DNA of 64,000 nt from Paenarthrobacter sp. Z7-10. GTDB taxonomy: Bacteria; Actinomycetota; Actinomycetes; Actinomycetales; Micrococcaceae. The position numbers and the translations under genes are program-made. Under the pieces are notes generated by a model. That model was given only the letters and a program-made list of their open reading frames with translations. It made no database searches and had not been told where the DNA came from. Below, in pieces: positions 8,539 through 64,000 of this stretch; position 1 is the stretch's first letter; each line of letters begins with the position of its first letter. The stretch spans positions 1 through 64,000 of the forward strand of contig NZ_JADPVH010000010.1 of the NCBI RefSeq assembly GCF_026932795.1, written 5' to 3'.

Positions 8539-9963
8539 ATGAGTACTTTAACGACTGCCCTGCCCACCCGTCCTCAAGGCCCGGACCAGGCAGATGCCGG
8601 CGCATTCGCCGACAGCACCCCCGGTGCCTTTCCACTGCTGGAGGTGGCCGGAGCGCAGCTGCACGCTCCCTTGGTGAAGGGCGGCAGCGTCCGTTATGCC
8701 AACCTGGATTATGCCGCCTCCACCCCCGCCGCTCAAACTGTTGCTGATTACCTGACCCAGATCCTGCCGTACTACGCCAGCGTTCACCGCGGTGCCGGTT
8801 TCACCTCGCAGGTCAGCACCTCAGTCTACGAAAATGCCCGAACGACCGTGCGCAATTTCGTTGGCGGCCGCCCCGACGACGCGGTGATTTTTACCCGTAA
8901 CACCACCGATTCGCTGAACCTGCTGGCCGGCTGCCTGAGCGGACACGCCGGCGACGTGGTTTACCTCGATATCGAACACCACGCCAACCTGCTCCCCTGG
9001 CAGCGCCTGCCGCACCGCAGCGTCGTCGCCCGCGATTCGCTGGCCGAAACGCTGCGGGTGTTGGAGGCGGAACTCAGCCACGGAAACGTCACCCTGCTGG
9101 CAGTCTCCGGCGCCTCCAATATCACAGGCGAGATCCTGCCGGTCAAAGAGCTTGCCGCGCTGGCGCACCGGTATGGCGCCCGGATCGTGGTGGATGCGGC
9201 CCAGCTTGCTCCGCACCGCAGAATAAACATCGCCGCCGACGACATTGATTACCTCGCGTTTTCGGGGCACAAGCTCTATGCACCCTTCGGGACCGGCGTT
9301 TTAGTGGGGCGTGTTGATTGGCTCGACGCGGGAGAGCCGCATTTGGCCGGCGGCGGGGCGGTGAGGGAGGCACGGCTGGAAACGGTCAGCTGGGCCTCCT
9401 CTCCGGCCAGGCACGAGGCCGGCTCCCCGAATGTGCTCGGTGCCGCCACGCTGGCGAGGGCCACAGAAGTTTTGGCCGGACTGGACCACGCGCAATGGCG
9501 GTCCCATGAGGAAGCGCTTCGCCGCTGCTTGGTCGCCGGGCTGGAGCGGCTGCACGGCGTGAAGGTGCACCGGCTCTTTACCGATGCACAGGACTTCCCG
9601 TCCAGCGGATCCATCGGTGTGGTGAATTTCTCCGTGGCCGGCTACGACGCCGGCCTCGCGGCGGCCTACCTCTCGGCCGAGCACGGAGTTGGCGTGCGGG
9701 ACGGAAAATTCTGCGCCCACCCGCTGCTGCGGCGGCTCGGCCTGCCCTCCGGGTCGCTGCGCGCAAGCTTCGGCATCGGCTCCAGGCTGGAGGACGCGCA
9801 GCGTCTGATCGAGGGCGTCGCGACACTGCTGGAGTCCGGGTTGGGCTGCGACTACATCGTGGATTCCGGCCGCTGGGTACCGGCCGTGGACCAACGCGAG
9901 TACCCCGAATGGTCACCCAACACGCCGGGGACCGCAGGCGCTGCTCCCTGCAGCCAGGACTGA
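8539..9963 (+). CDS. class V aminotransferase, cysteine-desulfurase-like
   Basis: A 474-residue PLP enzyme. The PLP lysine is K245 in SGHKLYAPFGTG, preceded by the cofactor Asp D219 in VVDAAQLAPH. A late FCAHPLL motif places a cysteine where group II cysteine desulfurases carry the catalytic residue. A start at ATG 8539 fits GAGG at 8531-8534; TTG 8527 is the longer alternative. Control by a SAM-IV riboswitch points to sulfur amino acid metabolism, for example sulfur transfer from cysteine, but the substrate is inferred. The N-terminal 35 residues are outside the family core. A methyltransferase gene follows. Confidence 0.88.
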   Translation: MSTLTTALPTRPQGPDQADAGAFADSTPGAFPLLEVAGAQLHAPLVKGGSVRYANLDYAASTPAAQTVADYLTQILPYYASVHRGAGFTSQVSTSVYENARTTVRNFVGGRPDDAVIFTRNTTDSLNLLAGCLSGHAGDVVYLDIEHHANLLPWQRLPHRSVVARDSLAETLRVLEAELSHGNVTLLAVSGASNITGEILPVKELAALAHRYGARIVVDAAQLAPHRRINIAADDIDYLAFSGHKLYAPFGTGVLVGRVDWLDAGEPHLAGGGAVREARLETVSWASSPARHEAGSPNVLGAATLARATEVLAGLDHAQWRSHEEALRRCLVAGLERLHGVKVHRLFTDAQDFPSSGSIGVVNFSVAGYDAGLAAAYLSAEHGVGVRDGKFCAHPLLRRLGLPSGSLRASFGIGSRLEDAQRLIEGVATLLESGLGCDYIVDSGRWVPAVDQREYPEWSPNTPGTAGAAPCSQD

Positions 9964-21060: not shown

Positions 21061-22180
21061 CGGCTCCCCCCATCTCTTCCGCGATCCTCATAGCCTCTTC
21101 GATCAGGGTCTCAACTATCTGGTCCTCGGGAACAGTTTTCACCACTTGGCCCTTGACGAAGATCTGGCCCTTGCCGTTACCGGAGGCAACACCGAGGTCC
21201 GCTTCCCGGGCCTCGCCGGGTCCGTTGACCACACAGCCCATGACGGCCACGCGAAGCGGAACTTCCATCCCCTCAAGCCCGGCGGTAACCTGTTCGGCCA
21301 AAGTGTAGACATCGACCTGCGCCCGCCCACAGGACGGACAGGACACAATTTCCAGCTTTCGCGGCCGCAGATTCAGCGACTGCAGGATCTGGTTTCCCAC
21401 TTTGATTTCTTCCACCGGCGGTGCGGAGAGGGAAACCCGAATAGTGTCCCCGATCCCCTGCGAGAGCAATGCGCCGAAAGCAGTGGCAGACTTGATCGTT
21501 CCCTGGAATGCGGGACCGGCTTCGGTGACGCCCAGATGCAGCGGCCAGTCACCCCGTTCGGCCAGCAGTTCATAGGCCCGCACCATCACGACGGGGTCAT
21601 TGTGCTTAACGGAGATCTTGAAGTCGTGAAAGTCATGTTCCTCGAAGAGCGACGCTTCCCAGACGGCCGACTCGACCAGCGCTTCGGGGGTCGCCTTCCC
21701 GTACTTCTGCATTAACCGCGGATCCAGCGAGCCGGCATTCACACCAATCCGAATGGACGTTCCATGATCCTTCGCCGCCTGCGCGATCTCTTTGATCTGA
21801 TCATCAAATTTGCGGATGTTTCCCGGATTGACCCGCACCGCAGCGCAGCCGGCGTCGATCGCGGCAAAGACATACTTCGGTTGGAAGTGGATGTCCGCGA
21901 TCACCGGAATCTGGGACTTCCTGGCGATGATAGGCAGCGCCTCCGCGTCGTCAGCGGAAGGGCATGCGACCCGGACAATGTCACAGCCGGACGCCGTGAG
22001 CTCGGCGATCTGCTGCAGAGTGGCGTTGATGTCCGTTGTCGGCGTCGTCGTCATGGATTGGACACTGACGGGAAAATCCGAGCCGACCCCCACGGACCCA
22101 ACCTTGATCTGGCGCGTCTTGCGTCGCGGAGCAAGGACTGGAGGTGGTGCTGCCGGCATTCCGAGGCTGACCGAGGTCAA
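21014..22180 (-). CDS. ispG: 4-hydroxy-3-methylbut-2-enyl diphosphate synthase
   Basis: A 388-residue iron-sulfur enzyme of the MEP isoprenoid pathway, converting MEcPP to HMBPP. The [4Fe-4S] ligands are visible in [10 protein letters not shown] and [10 protein letters not shown], and the TIM-barrel half in [16 protein letters not shown] and [12 protein letters not shown]. The TTG start at 22180 has AAGGAG six bases upstream, so the longer open frame to 22237 is rejected. The GNAT gene overlaps its 3' end. dxr and rseP are on the same strand, but three genes separate them from ispG. Confidence 0.95.
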
Positions 22181-22295
22181 AGTATGCTCCTTGTGGCTCT
22201 GTCCGGCCATTTCAGTTCGAAAGGGCCGGTCCGTCATGACCCATAACCTACCCGGTGCGGGCGCGGTTGGCTCACTTCCAGTGTAGGCCGTGGCG

Positions 22296-22589
22296 CTAGC
22301 CTACGTGCGCGCTGAGCGCTCCGATGCCGGGGATCCAGGCAGTGGATTTCAGGCCGGCGATGCCACCGGCGGCGTTGAACGGATCCTGTTTGAGCAGCCC
22401 ATTCAGTGCTTCGTCGTCGTCCGCCTTGAAAATCAGGAGGGCACCGGTGCCGTCCTCGAAGGGGCCGGAGGCAAGGACGTGGCCGTCCTGAACCAGCGAC
22501 GCCAGCCACGTGCGGTGCGCTGGCCGGTGCTCGTCGCGGATCGCCGCCGCATCCGGACCGTATACATACTCCACTGCATAAATGCTCAT
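22296..22589 (-). CDS. YciI-family protein
   Basis: A 97-residue protein of the YCII fold (alpha-beta dimer related to muconolactone isomerase). Recognisable are [10 protein letters not shown] at the start, [26 protein letters not shown] with the family's histidine and Asp, and [20 protein letters not shown]. Family members are mostly uncharacterised; some act as dehydrochlorinases or as domain partners. Freestanding between ispG and a membrane protein gene. Function cannot be stated beyond the fold. Confidence 0.85.
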
Positions 22590-22634
22590 ACCCTCACCCT
22601 ATCCGTCCGGCTCAGGCCGGTGCTATTTCCAACC

Positions 22635-23114
22635 CTAACCAAGGAGCAGCCATCTCACCGGGATGGCCACTCCTGCGGCCCAGAGCATGGAGCTGAGCGT
22701 GCCGATGATGAACCGCTCGCTGGCCGCCGGGGTCTGCTTCAGCTCCGGATAGCGACCCAGACCCTTGATCGCCACGATGTACGCAATGGCCACCGGCTGG
22801 TCGGCAAGAATGGCGACGACGACGGCGAGCCGTTCCAGGATGCCGATGACCATGCCACCTCGCAGCACTCCGGCATCGGTGACTTCCACGGGAGGATCCT
22901 GTGCCGCCGTTTCCGAAGCTGCCTCGGACACCGTCGACGAGGCCTGGGTACCGCGCACATCCGGTCCATGGTCATCCGCGCTATGCTCCTCCGGTCCGGC
23001 TTCAGCGGCGCCGTGCACATCCGCGGTACGGGCCAGCCGCAACACCCCTGCCGTGACGGGCCAGCCGGCCACGGCAGCAACCACTATGACGAGCACAATC
23101 CACAATGCCTGCAT
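22635..23114 (-). CDS. small membrane protein next to satD
   Basis: A 159-residue protein with an N-terminal membrane helix (LWIVLVIVVAAVAGWPV), a polar, acidic linker of about 55 residues, and a C-terminal half with GMVIGILERLAVVVAILADQP and SSMLWAAGVAIPVRWLLL as further helices. No named domain is recognised with certainty. It lies 175 bp downstream of satD on the same strand; the combination of a SatD-like protein and a membrane protein suggests they work together, but this is inference from position only. Confidence 0.7.
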   Translation of the reverse strand: MQALWIVLVIVVAAVAGWPVTAGVLRLARTADVHGAAEAGPEEHSADDHGPDVRGTQASSTVSEAASETAAQDPPVEVTDAGVLRGGMVIGILERLAVVVAILADQPVAIAYIVAIKGLGRYPELKQTPAASERFIIGTLSSMLWAAGVAIPVRWLLLG

Positions 23115-59607: not shown

Positions 59608-60444
59608 TCAGAAACTCACCGTTCCGGCAACGCACGTCGTGGTGTTGCCTCCAATCCAGATGTCCGCACCGACACGGTCGATGTGAACGCGCCCGTCACG
59701 TCCCAGAACTGTGCCCTGACGAACCGTATATGAGTCCGGGGCGGCGCCTGCGCCAATCAGCCATTGGGCGAGACCCGCGTTTAGGCTTCCCGTCACCGGA
59801 TCCTCATTTACGCCCAGATCGGGAACGAAGGCACGCACCTCGTAGTCCGCCGTCGACCCGGCCGGATGAGGACCGATCAGCCCTATCTTCATTCCCCGCA
59901 TGGCCGCAAAATCGGGCCTTACGGCCAGCACAGAGGCCGCCGAATCGAGCAGCAGCCCGAACCAGCCGGGCCCGTTATCCACCCACTGTTGGTCCAGAAC
60001 CTGAGCCGGTGCGATGCCCAGACTCCGGACGGCGCGCTGCAGCGTTTCCTGCTCCAGCGGGCCGGTGCGCCGCAGCGGGGGCGCCGCGAAGGCGAGGCGG
60101 CCGGCATCGTTGCGAATCCGGACTAGCCCCGCACCGCATTCCTGCACGATGGTACTGGCCGCCTGTGGCACGTTTCCCGAGGAGAGCCAAGCGTGACAGC
60201 TGCCCAAGGTCGGATGCCCGGCGAACGGAAGTTCCCCGCCCGGCGTAAAAATGCGCAGGCGGTAATCGGCTTTCGGCTGCGTTGGCGGCAGCAGGAAGGT
60301 TGTCTCCGACAGGTTAGTCCAGCGGGCGAAGGCCGCCAGCTGATCATCTGGCAGGTCATCGGCGTCGAAGACGACCGCCACCGGATTGCCTTGGAAGGGA
60401 ATTTGACTGAAGACGTCAACCTGAGAGAAATTTTTCGCGGCCAC
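59608..60444 (-). CDS. PhzF-family protein
   Basis: A 278-residue epimerase-fold protein: QVDVFSQIPFQGNPVAVVFD, TNLSETTFLL (catalytic Glu), LRIFTPGGELPFAGHPTLGS, and EDPVTGSLNAGLAQWL near the end. PhzF proteins isomerise small ring compounds; most are uncharacterised, and no phenazine genes are near. GTG 60444 gives the conserved start; a possible -10 TATCCT lies seven bases before it, so a leaderless messenger is possible. The frame opens earlier at 60522 within the radical SAM gene end. Confidence 0.88.
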   Translation of the reverse strand: MAAKNFSQVDVFSQIPFQGNPVAVVFDADDLPDDQLAAFARWTNLSETTFLLPPTQPKADYRLRIFTPGGELPFAGHPTLGSCHAWLSSGNVPQAASTIVQECGAGLVRIRNDAGRLAFAAPPLRRTGPLEQETLQRAVRSLGIAPAQVLDQQWVDNGPGWFGLLLDSAASVLAVRPDFAAMRGMKIGLIGPHPAGSTADYEVRAFVPDLGVNEDPVTGSLNAGLAQWLIGAGAAPDSYTVRQGTVLGRDGRVHIDRVGADIWIGGNTTTCVAGTVSF

Positions 60445-60518
60445 GATTGAAGGATACAAGACCACCGTGCCACATCTCTGCCCGCTGTCCCTGCCCGCTG
60501 TCTCTGACCTGTCGGCCC

Positions 60519-61949
60519 TCACACGCTGGCCGGTGAGGTGAGCGTCGCTGATGAGACGGGTCTGATGGGCAACATTTTTCGCAGTCCGGCGTTTTCGGCT
60601 TGATCAAGGGCTGAATGCTGGACGCAGGCCGGGACCAACCGTCCGGTCTCAGGATGGCTCATCGCGTACATGCAGGAGCCGAGGCGCTCATGGGTCTCCC
60701 GGATCTTGGGGTCATCGCTGACCACTCCCTGCTCCATGAGTGTCCAGGCCGGTTGCACCTCGGCAGCGACCATGAAGTTATGCACCACAAACGTTTTAAA
60801 GCCCAGCCGTCTTCCGTATGCCGCCGCCACCACACGGCGCGGACCGCCGGCACGTTTGAGCATGCGCGCGGCGAACCGGATCAGAACTGGGACGTCCTCC
60901 AGGTGCCCCAGCACGGCGCGCACAATTTTGACCGTGACAACGGTTTTAGGTGCGCCCCCGAAAATCATTCCTCCGAAGTGCTCAAGGACCCGGTCGCGGG
61001 CCGCAAGGTCTGCGGGGTCTTCCGGATCCAGCAGAGGGGTGAAAGCCGCTCCGACCCGCAGTCCCACCGACGTCCTGTTGCAGCGCACATCTCCAAACTG
61101 GGTGCCTTGCCACGGGAGACGCTGTCCCGCGCCCGCCTCAATCCGGGACCAGACGGCGTCGATGGTGACGTCACCAAAATCTTCGGTCCACCTGCGATCG
61201 TCCCCGATGTAGGCCGCCGGCTGAAAGGACAGCATGTCGTATGGCATCTCCAGTACGGCCCGGGTCACCTCTTCAACCTGATCGACGTTGGACGGGGTCA
61301 CGGTCATGTTGTGGGCGATGTAGGAGCTGATGCCATAATCGCGCTTGAGGTCGACGAACATGTCCGCGAACCGTGCACGGAACGGGTTGAGTTCGGCCTC
61401 GCTGTGCGGGCGCACTGCTCCCCGACGCCCCCGCATCAGCGAATCAAAGTGGGCGGCGAATGATACTTTGCCAAAGCGTGGCTTACCGTCCCCGTCGAGT
61501 GCGACATCCAGCAGGTACTGATAGTCGAAGTCTCCGTGTGTCATGGACATCGGCTCACGTCCGTTGGCACGCATCGCGAGCAGCGCGGCGGCATGGTCTT
61601 GCGCCGGGAGCAGGCTGACCTCTCCGCCGATCAGCTGCGCGTGTGCCCGCGGCCCGCGGACGCTGCGCAAATACTCCATCTGATCCCTGACCGCCCTGAC
61701 CGTGTGACTGCCGTCGACCCTAACCTTGTTCGCGTCGGCCGAGTGATAGCAGGGCGAACAGGTCAGGTTGCATTTGGGGAACACTCCGTGCGTACCTTCA
61801 CACCCCACCGCTGCCTTCCCCAAAAGCTGGCCCGGCGTTTTAACGTGATCCGGCAGTTCCGCCCACCGCCGAGCCAGCGCAGTCCTGCTTTCCGGATGGA
61901 TCGGCCGGGTCGCCAGCTCGATGCGTCGCAGGAACGCTGCAATGGTCAT
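60519..61949 (-). CDS. radical SAM protein of unknown function
   Basis: A 476-residue protein. The cluster motif is CNLTCSPC (C60, C64, C67; CxxxCxxC), preceded by VGCEGTHGVFPK and followed by QLIGGEVSLLPAQDHAAAL, the usual SAM-binding GGE element. Additional Cys sit at RCNRTSVG and in the C-terminal SCMYAMSHPETGRLVPACVQ, which could bind a second cluster. I do not recognise the specific family. A 25-codon ORF overlaps its ATG (ATGA). On the same strand, upstream, lie two further small ORFs and a methyltransferase. Confidence 0.82.
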   Translation of the reverse strand: MTIAAFLRRIELATRPIHPESRTALARRWAELPDHVKTPGQLLGKAAVGCEGTHGVFPKCNLTCSPCYHSADANKVRVDGSHTVRAVRDQMEYLRSVRGPRAHAQLIGGEVSLLPAQDHAAALLAMRANGREPMSMTHGDFDYQYLLDVALDGDGKPRFGKVSFAAHFDSLMRGRRGAVRPHSEAELNPFRARFADMFVDLKRDYGISSYIAHNMTVTPSNVDQVEEVTRAVLEMPYDMLSFQPAAYIGDDRRWTEDFGDVTIDAVWSRIEAGAGQRLPWQGTQFGDVRCNRTSVGLRVGAAFTPLLDPEDPADLAARDRVLEHFGGMIFGGAPKTVVTVKIVRAVLGHLEDVPVLIRFAARMLKRAGGPRRVVAAAYGRRLGFKTFVVHNFMVAAEVQPAWTLMEQGVVSDDPKIRETHERLGSCMYAMSHPETGRLVPACVQHSALDQAENAGLRKMLPIRPVSSATLTSPASV

Positions 61950-62023
61950 GATTTCTCCTGCTCGTCAAGTTTTTTTAGGGCTGCGGCAGCCAAGACCCGA
62001 CGCAGCATGGTTGCCGGGGTCAT
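61946..62023 (-). CDS. possible 25-residue peptide coupled to the radical SAM gene
   Basis: ATG 62023 to TGA, overlapping the radical SAM start as ATGA. The peptide is basic then acidic (MLRRVLAAAALKKLDEQEKS after a five-residue start). There is no ribosome-binding site before the ATG, so it would need re-initiation. Radical SAM enzymes are often preceded by short substrate peptides, but this ORF could also be chance. Listed because of the exact overlap. Confidence 0.3.
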   Translation of the reverse strand: MTPATMLRRVLAAAALKKLDEQEKS

Positions 62024-62042
62024 GGGAGGTTAGGGCATGCTG

Positions 62043-62180
62043 TCATCGATGGGTGCCGCTTCCGCTGTCGAAGGCGACGTGAGATCTGATCCATCTGGCC
62101 AGCGGCGAGGGCCAGGGATAGGACCAAGCAGCGTTCCGGACTTGGCGGTCACCGGCGCGGGCACGGTAGGAATCGCTCAT
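62043..62180 (-). CDS. possible 45-residue protein, ATGA-coupled
   Basis: ATG overlaps the stop of the next upstream small ORF (ATGA at 62180-62177). The product, starting MSDSYRARAGDRQVR and ending VAFDSGSGTHR, has a Trp/Pro patch (WSYPWPSPLARW). No domain is recognised. It is 19 bp upstream of the 25-residue ORF. Confidence is low; the chain of overlaps is the only support. Confidence 0.3.
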   Translation of the reverse strand: MSDSYRARAGDRQVRNAAWSYPWPSPLARWIRSHVAFDSGSGTHR

Positions 62181-62254
62181 GACGAACTCATGATGACGGG
62201 CACAGCCACCAAACCCAGAATAGCGCCACACAACATGCGTCCCATCATGCCCAA
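62177..62254 (-). CDS. possible 25-residue membrane peptide
   Basis: TTG 62254 has AAGGGGG six bases upstream. The peptide is almost wholly hydrophobic (MLCGAILGLVAVPVIM), a single membrane span. Its TGA overlaps the ATG of the 45-residue ORF. It lies about 70 bp after the methyltransferase stop, which itself is inside a TGAGCG/CGCTCA hairpin. Better supported than the other two small ORFs because of its ribosome-binding site. Confidence 0.4.
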   Translation of the reverse strand: MGMMGRMLCGAILGLVAVPVIMSSS

Positions 62255-62326
62255 TAAGAGCCCCCTTTGGTAGTTCTTCCGACCTCCGACGGTATGGCTC
62301 GCCAAGACCTGGATGAGCGTTTGCGC

Positions 62327-62983
62327 TCAAATTACCGGCGCCTCCGGCATGTCTCCGGTCCGGATCTGGAGGTGACCACCCCGGGCAGAGCCGCGAAGAA
62401 CGTTGACACATTGTTGCTCTATTGCGCGCCACGGGGCCGCAGTGATGTCGGATCCTCCGAGTGCACACGCAAGCCGCGCCGACGGTATCAACCAGCGGGC
62501 ACCTCCCACCGGATCCTGCAAGTCCACCACCCCCAGGCGGCCGCCTGGTCCCAGTAATGCCGTCATATTCGCCCAGGCCCGCGTCCAATCCCCCATCAGC
62601 GACAGAGAGTACGTTGCCAGAGCGGCATCCGAAGCTGCCGATCCCCCGCTCTCCTCAATGCGGGCAGCGATCGATCTGGGATCCAGAAGTACCATGTCGG
62701 CTTGGACCAGGATGACGTTGTTCCAGCCGCGCGCTGTGGCCCGCCGCCGCGCCATGTTAAGCATGTCGGCGCTGCGGTCGATGCCGACTATGGTCCCCGA
62801 CGTGCCGACCCGCTGCTGCAGCAGGGAAAAATTCAGCCCGGTTCCGCATCCAACATCCAGCACCTGCTGGCCCGTGCGCGGCGCCAAAGCGGTGATACCG
62901 AGCACCCTTCCGGCATGATAGACAGGGTATTCGCCGGACAGCAGGTCATACAACCGGGCAAAGTGCGTGTATTTGTCGCCGAT
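62327..62983 (-). CDS. class I SAM-dependent methyltransferase, start unusual
   Basis: A methyltransferase of about 218 residues: YTHFARLYDLLSGEYPVY, motif I VLDVGCGTGLNFSLL, DRSADMLNMARRRA, LGPGGRLGVVDLQDP; it resembles UbiE/lipid methyltransferases. The only standard start (TTG 62953) cuts off the conserved N-terminal YTHFAR segment. An ATC at 62983 has a perfect AAGGAG six bases upstream and restores it, so an ATC start or an ATG-to-ATC change is likely. It shares the strand with the radical SAM gene and is divergent from the flavoprotein. Confidence 0.75.
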   Translation of the reverse strand: MGDKYTHFARLYDLLSGEYPVYHAGRVLGITALAPRTGQQVLDVGCGTGLNFSLLQQRVGTSGTIVGIDRSADMLNMARRRATARGWNNVILVQADMVLLDPRSIAARIEESGGSAASDAALATYSLSLMGDWTRAWANMTALLGPGGRLGVVDLQDPVGGARWLIPSARLACALGGSDITAAPWRAIEQQCVNVLRGSARGGHLQIRTGDMPEAPVI

Positions 62984-63067
62984 GGCGGACTCCTTCGGGA
63001 TAGTTTCGGAGGCTCAGTTTCGCCGGCCTCAAATCTGGCATTGCCGGTCGAGCAGGAGGAGTCCATC

Positions 63068-64000
63068 ATGGCAGCCGGGAACAAGATCATTGATTTGCTG
63101 GTCGTGGGCGGGGGCACCGCGGGGATCGTGGGGGCCAAAACCGCGGCCGGCTTCGGCGCGGGCACTGTCCTTGTCGAACGATCCCGCACTGGCGGGGATT
63201 GCCTGTGGACAGGCTGCGTGCCCTCCAAAACCCTCCTCGCCGTGGCCGAACACGCCAGGACCATGCGTGCCGTCACCGGGCAACCACCGGCATTCAACGC
63301 CGTCCAAAAGCGCATATCCGCCGCAATCAACACCATTGAACCCGTCGATTCTCCGGCGGCCCTCGACGATGCCGGTGTGCGGGTCATCAAAGGCAACCTG
63401 ACATTCCGTGCACACGGTGTCGCAGAAGTCAACGGGAGGACCATCCACTTCCGGCAGGCACTGATCGCTACCGGAGCAGCCCCGGCCGCCCTGCACGTCC
63501 CGGGCTTGGCCCCTGGGGTTACCTTCACCTCGGAGACGATCTGGGAGCTCGACACCCTTCCCGCCCGGCTGGCCATTATTGGTGGCGGTCCTATCGCCTG
63601 CGAACTTGGCCAGGCCTTCGCCCAGCTTGGATCGGTGGTGACCATGATCGCCCGCTCCCGGATCCTGGGCAAGGAAGAACCGGACGCTGCGGCCCTGGTG
63701 CGGGTAAGTTTGAAATACGACGGCGTGGCCATCCTGGAGAACACCACGATCGCGGACGCCGTGGGCACGGACGCGGGGTGCCGGCTCCGACTGCGCGACG
63801 GAAAAGTCGTTGACGCGGACGCAGTCCTGTTGGCTACCGGACGCACACCCCGAACCGCAGGCCTTGGTCTTCAAAGGGTCGCAGTCACGGTGAACCGGGC
63901 CGGTCACGTTGTGACGGATAAGCGGATGAGGACCTCCAACCCACTCATCTGGGCTGCCGGAGACGTGACCGCAAATCCTCAGTTCACCCATCTGGCCGGT
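63068..64000 (+). CDS. mercuric-reductase-like FAD disulfide oxidoreductase, 3' end outside
   Basis: The first 311 codons are present. The FAD loop VVGGGTAG lies at 12-19, the redox-active cysteines at C45 and C50 in GGDCLWTGCVPSKTLL, a second nucleotide loop in AIIGGGPIACELGQAFAQLG, and AAGDVTANPQFTHLAG at the edge. The CLWTGC spacing is that of the mercuric-reductase/Lpd family; no N-terminal HMA domain exists and the metal-binding C-terminus is out of view. AGGAGG precedes the ATG. It is divergent from the methyltransferase over an 84-bp shared gap. Confidence 0.88.
   Translation, partial: MAAGNKIIDLLVVGGGTAGIVGAKTAAGFGAGTVLVERSRTGGDCLWTGCVPSKTLLAVAEHARTMRAVTGQPPAFNAVQKRISAAINTIEPVDSPAALDDAGVRVIKGNLTFRAHGVAEVNGRTIHFRQALIATGAAPAALHVPGLAPGVTFTSETIWELDTLPARLAIIGGGPIACELGQAFAQLGSVVTMIARSRILGKEEPDAAALVRVSLKYDGVAILENTTIADAVGTDAGCRLRLRDGKVVDADAVLLATGRTPRTAGLGLQRVAVTVNRAGHVVTDKRMRTSNPLIWAAGDVTANPQFTHLAG

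Follow-up and report, generated by a model that had tools for sequence, protein, structure and literature searches.

A conserved actinobacterial gene cluster around a radical SAM protein of Paenarthrobacter sp. Z7-10 and its possible connection with arsenosugars and phospholipids

What do a radical S-adenosylmethionine (SAM) protein, a methyltransferase and a divergently oriented flavoprotein do together at the end of a 64,000-nucleotide stretch of Paenarthrobacter sp. Z7-10 DNA (hereafter the window; contig NZ_JADPVH010000010.1 of assembly GCF_026932795.1, positions 1 to 64,000)? A sequence-only reading of positions 60,519 to 64,000 had grouped these genes with up to three coupled small open reading frames (ORFs) as an unassigned set that could modify a lipid, a metalloid or a peptide. 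Comparison with relatives and with a second copy in the same genome indicates that the window holds a reduced second copy of a conserved actinobacterial cluster, the most informative partner genes of which sit beyond the window (Table 1). We tentatively propose that this cluster handles an arsenosugar-like compound, either imported or made, and attaches it to a phospholipid. The proposal draws on gene content, homology, recurrent gene order, selection and predicted folds, from which we infer the ligand, donor, acceptor and order of reactions.

The radical SAM gene is open over its full length; of 246 genomes in the class, four, its own among them, carry it. A scan of named genomes gave 166 relatives, the best 79 of which (the named loci, among which close relatives prevail) include Arthrobacter, Microbacterium, Microcella, Cryobacterium, Geodermatophilus, Rhodococcus and Streptomyces, together with one locus titled Planococcus (L047), which is not an actinobacterium. 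Partner genes were called present by tblastn (E 1e-5, 45% of the query) in the 54 loci having at least 8 kb on either side of the radical SAM gene. The flavoprotein was found in 50 of these, a CDP-alcohol phosphatidyltransferase in 48, a YnjB-type binding protein and each permease of an importer in 47, the importer ATPase in 48 (at least one match, in L019, being generic) and a TVP38/DedA-type protein in 40; binding protein, transferase and flavoprotein occur together in 46. Further partners are the methyltransferase (28 loci), DUF427 (14), a Crp gene (12), a membrane protein (10) and an AhpD-like gene (8). In three loci (L019, L058 and L093) tblastn detects none of binding protein, transferase, flavoprotein and methyltransferase, although L093 has an MTAP-like gene. 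Gene order varies between genera. Of the 38 loci among the 79 that have the methyltransferase, 32 have it divergent from the flavoprotein, and the transferase is convergent with the flavoprotein in 56 of 62. Clustering of called ORFs of at least 70 codons recovers the same set plus further neighbours, among them, by family search of one example each, a type II haloacid dehalogenase in 13 radical SAM loci (170 bits, cut-off 125), an extracytoplasmic function (ECF) sigma factor in 11 (L084-L091 and others), MerR-type regulators and an isochorismatase-like protein. Co-occurrence in most of the 54 loci supports the suggestion of a functional set, and the neighbourhood comparison that had been proposed as a check found the partners recurring in other genomes, so no failure of co-occurrence was seen.

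A second radical SAM gene, on contig C79 of the same genome, has 78% DNA identity to that of the window. The order there is an ATP-binding cassette transporter (ATPase, permeases, binding protein), the radical SAM gene, an AhpD-like gene, DUF427, a Crp/Fnr-type regulator, a 189-amino-acid membrane protein, the methyltransferase and the divergent flavoprotein, then the CDP-alcohol transferase and TVP38. What had been taken for coupled small ORFs in the window are instead the 3' part of the DUF427 gene (tblastn to C79, E 1.8e-16; the Pfam match of the product covers the last third of the DUF427 model) and the 3' end of the membrane-protein gene (tblastn E 1.3e-5 to C79, 6.1e-7 to L057 and 2.7e-6 to L016; blastn over 91 bases, 73.6% identity, E 7e-12). 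Approximately 0.9 kb that separates these two tails in C79, including the Crp/Fnr-type regulator, is gone from the window, and a search of the window stretch turned up nothing significant for the AhpD-like gene. As judged by these alignments, the small ORFs are a deletion scar in which the ends of two genes, both complete in C79, are left over. Both copies appear to be under selection, because dN/dS between them is between 0.10 and 0.22 in the five common genes (radical SAM 0.13, methyltransferase 0.18, transferase 0.10, TVP38 0.22, flavoprotein 0.21; dS 0.8-1.2). The window radical SAM protein nevertheless departs from columns that are at least 90% identical at four positions (P350L, D394V, Q420H and V447A; the 27 aligned sequences range from 0 to 7), and D394V falls in the FMD motif of the family, which reads FMV in the window copy. 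Compared with its window counterpart, the C79 flavoprotein gene shows a gap of two bases (L004 ~9763-9830) that shifts the frame near its 5' end; beyond it the remainder is open and conserved, and the gap is either real or an assembly error.

The importer, lipid transferase and DedA-type protein have homologues in Escherichia coli. The C79 binding protein scores 446 bits with PRK11622 (cut-off 203), and the transferase beyond the window reaches 37.3 bits with PF01066 (gathering score 22), its nearest family being archaetidylinositol phosphate synthase, far under the cut-off. With E-values calculated against the nine proteins of ydjX-ydjY-ydjZ-ynjA-ynjB-ynjC-ynjD-ynjE-ynjF, the binding protein matched YnjB (38.5%, 2e-73), the C79 transferase YnjF (33%, 4e-24), TVP38 both YdjX (33%, 3e-30) and YdjZ (1e-23), and the ATPase YnjD (37%, 9e-25); matches of one permease to YnjC (3e-6) and of the AhpD-like protein to YnjA (E 0.02) were weaker. 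The E. coli genes ydjXYZ-ynjABCD/ynjF are without a radical SAM, methyltransferase, MerA-like, DUF427 or Crp counterpart; nothing among the called ORFs of the Paenarthrobacter cluster matches E. coli ydjY or ynjE. TVP38 and YdjX are presumably COG0398 proteins. For bacterial DedA proteins of COG0398 a role as phospholipid flippases has been proposed; they are most commonly fused with pyridine nucleotide-disulfide oxidoreductases, and the authors connect them with aerobic metabolism (PMC10127716). The C79 copy carries a Crp/Fnr-type regulator, and the E. coli operon is tabled as directly activated by FNR (PMC3688515); a mild, perhaps indirect, induction by BaeR is also described (PMC2731931). 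A function for ydjXYZ-ynjABCD/ynjF was not found in open-licence literature, which gave at most passing mentions. In open-licence full text ynjF was never met together with phosphatidyltransferase, and no paper combined TVP38 and radical SAM with either phosphatidyltransferase or arsenosugar, or joined radical SAM and mercuric reductase to a CDP-alcohol phosphatidyltransferase. The model of the binding protein (pLDDT 90) has its structural neighbours among sugar-, UgpB- and sulfoquinovosyl-binding proteins (Z 25.2-27.8 over the best 50 matches), a predicted fold that would give the class only, since the best match has no named ligand; a PDB search with its sequence returned no matches.

The importer and transferase also travel on plasmids, 97 plasmid records matching the binding protein and 59 the transferase. 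At seven binding-protein loci chosen from the stronger matches (Metabacillus, Salmonella IncC, Aliiroseovarius, Pseudoalteromonas, Roseivivax, Cetobacterium and Klebsiella), a CDP-alcohol transferase adjoins the importer or lies one gene off in all seven. The Klebsiella plasmid record has the same order as the E. coli chromosome, and Cetobacterium has the bare core. Two plasmid stretches reached via the transferase agree, although one of them lies on another plasmid from the Pseudoalteromonas strain already inspected and encodes identical proteins. On the conjugative Salmonella IncC plasmid p22437-1 (L123 3101-16035), the Ynj core is accompanied by a TVP38/FAD fusion, an AhpD-like gene and a type II haloacid dehalogenase, and stands beside DUF692, DUF2282 and DoxX genes.

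The possible connection with arsenic comes from the genes around homologues of the radical SAM protein. In the seven Streptomyces-titled loci an MTAP-like phosphorylase directly follows the radical SAM gene (7/7), an ArsM-like methyltransferase and two glycosyltransferases (GT_a and GT_b) lie nearby (6/7), and an Rv1681-type radical SAM domain is joined to what its sequence suggests is a phosphatase-like protein (5/7). In L084, GT_a and GT_b score 170.6 bits with TIGR04282 (cut-off 134) and 238.7 bits with TIGR04283 (cut-off 182), which NCBIfam names as arsenosugar biosynthesis glycosyltransferases. Two loci, L087 (378-16548) and L091 (380-19977), have the order ArsM-like, ATPase, permeases, binding protein, transferase, TVP38, flavoprotein, radical SAM, MTAP-like and glycosyltransferases, the ArsM-like gene lying directly behind the importer genes (ATPase) on the same strand; L091 continues with Crp, an ArsR/SmtB regulator (78 bits, cut-off 55), AhpD-like and DUF427 genes. 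In this arrangement nearly all genes of the Micrococcales cluster, except the UbiE-like methyltransferase, meet an arsenosugar-type set in one locus. A more distant relative in Cupriavidus is grouped with ArsM-like, ArsS, GT_b, GT_a, MTAP-like and DUF547 genes, and one in Burkholderia glumae lies near ArsS (450 bits, cut-off 300), DUF547 and DUF427; a DUF547 gene also occurs in the Pseudoalteromonas Ynj cluster. Because the Cupriavidus relative adjoins a true ArsS, the radical SAM protein studied here need not replace that enzyme. The C79 AhpD-like protein weakly matches the model of an arsenosugar-associated peroxidase (E 6e-5).

In the scheme that we favour, ArsM would methylate arsenite, a radical SAM step would add a 5'-deoxyadenosyl group (the chemistry of ArsS), the MTAP-like phosphorylase would strip off adenine and the two glycosyltransferases would complete the arsenosugar. 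A YnjB-C-D-type importer would bring in an arsenosugar-like compound or a precursor, the route that the Paenarthrobacter genome, with its importer beside the C79 copy, would use. The YnjF-type enzyme would then join the imported or made compound to a phosphatidyl group, the DedA-type protein would shift the lipid between leaflets and the flavoprotein might hold thiols or arsenic reduced; the roles given here to the radical SAM protein, methyltransferase and flavoprotein are putative. Among the three substrates originally envisaged, lipid and metalloid, perhaps in one pathway, have gained ground and peptide has not: lipid because of the CDP-alcohol transferase, the DedA-type protein and the Tes-like fold described below, metalloid because the Streptomyces homologues are surrounded by ArsM-like and arsenosugar-type genes, and peptide is unsupported because the small ORFs are remnants and no conserved small ORF was found beside the radical SAM gene. 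We know of no enzyme that places arsenosugars on phospholipids, and the Streptomyces arrangement ties that question and the purpose of the E. coli ynj genes to one gene set. A bolder form of the proposal, which we consider rather unlikely, is that the Ynj core as a whole, E. coli ydjXYZ-ynjABCD/ynjF included, is an arsenolipid system in which YnjBCD imports arsenosugars, YnjF makes arsenosugar phospholipids and a separate, actinobacterial branch of Tes-like radical SAM proteins adds a further carbon-arsenic or carbon-carbon step.

Sequence comparisons place the radical SAM protein in no named family at its cut-off, so the known family with an unrelated function that had been envisaged as a counter-argument was not seen. 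PF04055 matches below its gathering score (E 9.9e-5), and membership of TrsS (NF045646, the best NCBIfam match, 19.9 bits around the SAM motif only, cut-off 490) and of Tes (NF045702, 12.9 bits, cut-off 450) was rejected; across the family TrsS and viperin models match 27 of 27 sequences and Tes 26 of 27, all far under the cut-offs and resting on the SAM motif. Seven cysteines (C50, C60, C64, C67, C290, C426 and C442) are invariant in the 27 aligned sequences, the window included, in agreement with the extra C-terminal cysteines first noted. The nearest solved folds to the AlphaFold2 model (pLDDT 81.8) are Tes 7tol (Z 23.4, 304 residues, root-mean-square deviation 3.4, 18% identity) and 7tom (Z 22.0, 342 residues), the next unrelated entries (MoaA and viperin) having Z 14.7. 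A profile of five Tes/TrsS-like proteins matches the radical SAM protein with probability 95 (E 2e-8, 331 columns), with C290, FMD, C426 and C442 in register with the Tes-like proteins. With the tetraether lipid synthase Tes/GDGT-MAS itself the predicted fold is held in common. In the alignment C455 and C470 of L096 are the counterparts of C426 and C442, but L096 and L098 have CC where the radical SAM protein has one cysteine, and the second N-terminal CxxxCxxC of the Tes-like L096-L098 is missing from it. For bacterial Tes homologues PMC11868695 describes the coupling of lipid tails as without experimental confirmation. In a tree the family forms one clade (100/100) with the Burkholderia/Cupriavidus pair as its sister (100/99), although long branches meet there and false joins are possible. 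In genome-wide searches the Tes model matched in 114 of 119 genomes and the TrsS model in 57 of 60, every match staying below the cut-off and those translated being largely MoaA-type by length and motif; the window protein is absent among the G000 matches listed. A PDB profile search with its sequence gave two aldolase entries (E 0.34), and plasmid tblastn gave 46 records, with 25% identity in the best 40 of 46.

The methyltransferase described as UbiE-like is a class I SAM-dependent methyltransferase (PF13649 E 5e-15, PF01209 E 7e-12), a class that it shares with both ArsM and UbiE; membership of UbiE/MenG was rejected (46 bits, PRK00216 cut-off 216), as was that of ArsM (48 bits, NF008823 cut-off 263). 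The best NCBIfam matches are CpaM (54 bits, cut-off 180) and then the DVU_1556 family (53 bits, cut-off 155), and a single generic methyltransferase-domain match in PADLOC (mad2, E 5e-14) was taken as shared fold. Translation probably begins at an ATC that follows GAAGGAG and lies upstream of the TTG in the ORF list; ATC is also found in L004, L036 and L066 and ATT in L051, directly behind an AAGGA site, while L016 and L057 have GTG or TTG at the matching position. This conserved rare start codon hints at translational control. The flavoprotein does run past the window as first described, starting behind its own ribosome-binding site and ending at contig position 64498. It matches Pyr_redox_2 (E 7e-57) and scores 373 bits with PRK06370.1-3 (cut-off 620) and 344 bits with the MerA model TIGR02053 (cut-off 454). 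The fold and the redox CxxxxC are common to MerA and the flavoprotein, but MerA has a vicinal cysteine pair near its C-terminus that is missing here, and membership of MerA was rejected on both score and tail.

Several results weigh against the arsenosugar-phospholipid proposal. Among the 79 named loci, arsenic genes lie near the radical SAM gene in one genus only (ArsM-like 6, MTAP-like 7), no MTAP-like gene being found in the other 72 within the stretch available; matches to the ArsM query in L018, L048 and L050 are weak (27-31%) and fall on the UbiE-like methyltransferase, and five matches to the GT_b query are also weak (32-40%). The Streptomyces loci are close relatives and not independent, two neighbouring systems may simply have met there, and the ArsM-like protein of L084 has 198 bits against an arsenite methyltransferase cut-off of 263. 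In the Paenarthrobacter genome itself the best ArsS match is 39.6 bits (TIGR04167, cut-off 300), neither TIGR04282 (97.9 bits) nor TIGR04283 (49.7 bits) is over its cut-off of 134 and 182 respectively, and a search with the Streptomyces ArsM-like protein found only generic methyltransferases, the best of them that of the window (E 4.7e-8). A link between the arsenosugar biosynthesis genes and the radical SAM cluster is likely, but membership of the Paenarthrobacter cluster in that biosynthetic set is not supported, none of these genes being found over its cut-off in the genome. ArsM has conserved arsenite-binding cysteines, and only C46, in motif I, is conserved at 95% or more in the window methyltransferase family (41 rows, 39 distinct); the C-terminal tail of the 476-residue flavoprotein has no cysteine. 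The resemblance to Tes lies mostly in structure (sequence score 12.9 bits, cut-off 450), with Tes absent among the best 50 Foldseek matches to the radical SAM model, SkfB being first. In E. coli and the inspected plasmid cores, importer and transferase occur without annotated arsenic genes in the stretches seen.

The main rival to arsenosugar attachment is a lipid pathway without arsenic, which we judge a minority possibility: an imported polar alcohol would be put on a phosphatidyl group, the Tes-like radical SAM protein would alter a tail or head group, and the Streptomyces arsenic genes would be a local addition. It accommodates the cores of E. coli, Metabacillus, Cetobacterium and Rhodobacterales, which lack annotated arsenic genes in the stretches inspected, the Tes-like predicted fold with its gap to the next unrelated structures, the five-protein profile match and the company that the binding-protein model keeps. 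Arsenosugar-type genes beside the radical SAM gene or its relatives in Streptomyces, Cupriavidus and Burkholderia do not sit easily with it, and a profile of three Tes-like proteins falls to probability 51, no better than the MoaA control (66 over 84 columns). Should arsenic not be involved, an overlooked phospholipid in common bacteria would be the next candidate.

Breakdown or detoxification of an organoarsenical, with the importer scavenging, the radical SAM protein and flavoprotein cutting or reducing the arsenic group and the lipid transferase serving another end, would explain why most loci keep importer, radical SAM protein and MerA-like reductase without ArsM, MTAP-like or glycosyltransferase genes. 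We hold it improbable, since the transferase, among the most constant partners, would have no role in it, and family searches, made for some of the recurrent neighbours, brought up no arsenite efflux gene. Less probable still is a redox or reactive-chlorine stress module in which flavoprotein, AhpD-like and Msr proteins guard the envelope: MsrA/B genes lie beside the Metabacillus cluster and AhpD-like genes recur, but in 8 of the 54 loci only; the flavoprotein reaches 173 bits with the RclA model (cut-off 740) and 179 bits with that of hypothiocyanite reductase (cut-off 650), less than its MerA score; and the E. coli operon is tabled as activated by FNR, i.e. without oxygen (PMC3688515). Maturation of a ribosomally synthesized and post-translationally modified peptide (RiPP), with the small ORFs as precursors, is suggested by the combination of radical SAM protein, methyltransferase and small ORFs and by SkfB heading the Foldseek matches. 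With the candidate ORFs being tails of two deleted genes, a precursor in the window was rejected, and none of 306 small ORFs surveyed outside called genes, up to 1.5 kb from the radical SAM gene, proved to be conserved, the widest similarity group covering 11 of 68 loci (an arginine-rich frame in the example seen), which leaves this explanation barely credible.

Table 1. Features of the radical SAM neighbourhood in and directly beyond the window
Feature	Position	Strand	Evidence
Radical SAM protein, unnamed family, 476 aa, CxxxCxxC	60519-61949	-	ORF list
DUF427 (PF04248) remnant, 3' part	62055-62207	-	tblastn to C79 gene, Pfam match
Membrane-protein gene remnant, 3' end (intact ~189 aa in C79)	62180-62254	-	tblastn, blastn
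Class I SAM methyltransferase, probable ATC start 62983-62981	62327-62983	-	PF13649, PF01209, start comparison
GAAGGAG ribosome-binding site ahead of methyltransferase	62990-62996	-	sequence; also in relatives
Mercuric-reductase-like FAD/NAD(P) oxidoreductase, first 311 of 476 codons	63068-64000	+	ORF, Pyr_redox_2
CDP-alcohol phosphatidyltransferase	contig ~64480-65145, beyond window	opposite flavoprotein	
TVP38/DedA-type protein	contig ~65099-65770, beyond window	opposite flavoprotein	

Some observations concern the surroundings of the cluster. An ORF at 59608-60522 (-), which we take to be PhzF-like from its resemblance to known sequences, has a first start codon that overlaps the radical SAM stop codon, and was not recognised among the recurrent neighbours in the clustered ORFs of the radical SAM loci. 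ECF sigma factors are also found near the B. glumae (L094 1437-2230) and IncC (L123 14054-14581) relatives. Approximately 9 kb past the C79 copy lies another radical SAM gene (L141 7548-8843, contig C79 ~21548-22843) with 45% identity over 242 amino acids to the Rv1681-type protein of the Streptomyces clusters. In Arthrobacter sp. H14 (L026 10001-20940) the block of radical SAM, AhpD-like, Crp and membrane-protein genes occurs twice within 11 kb, with near-equal identities.

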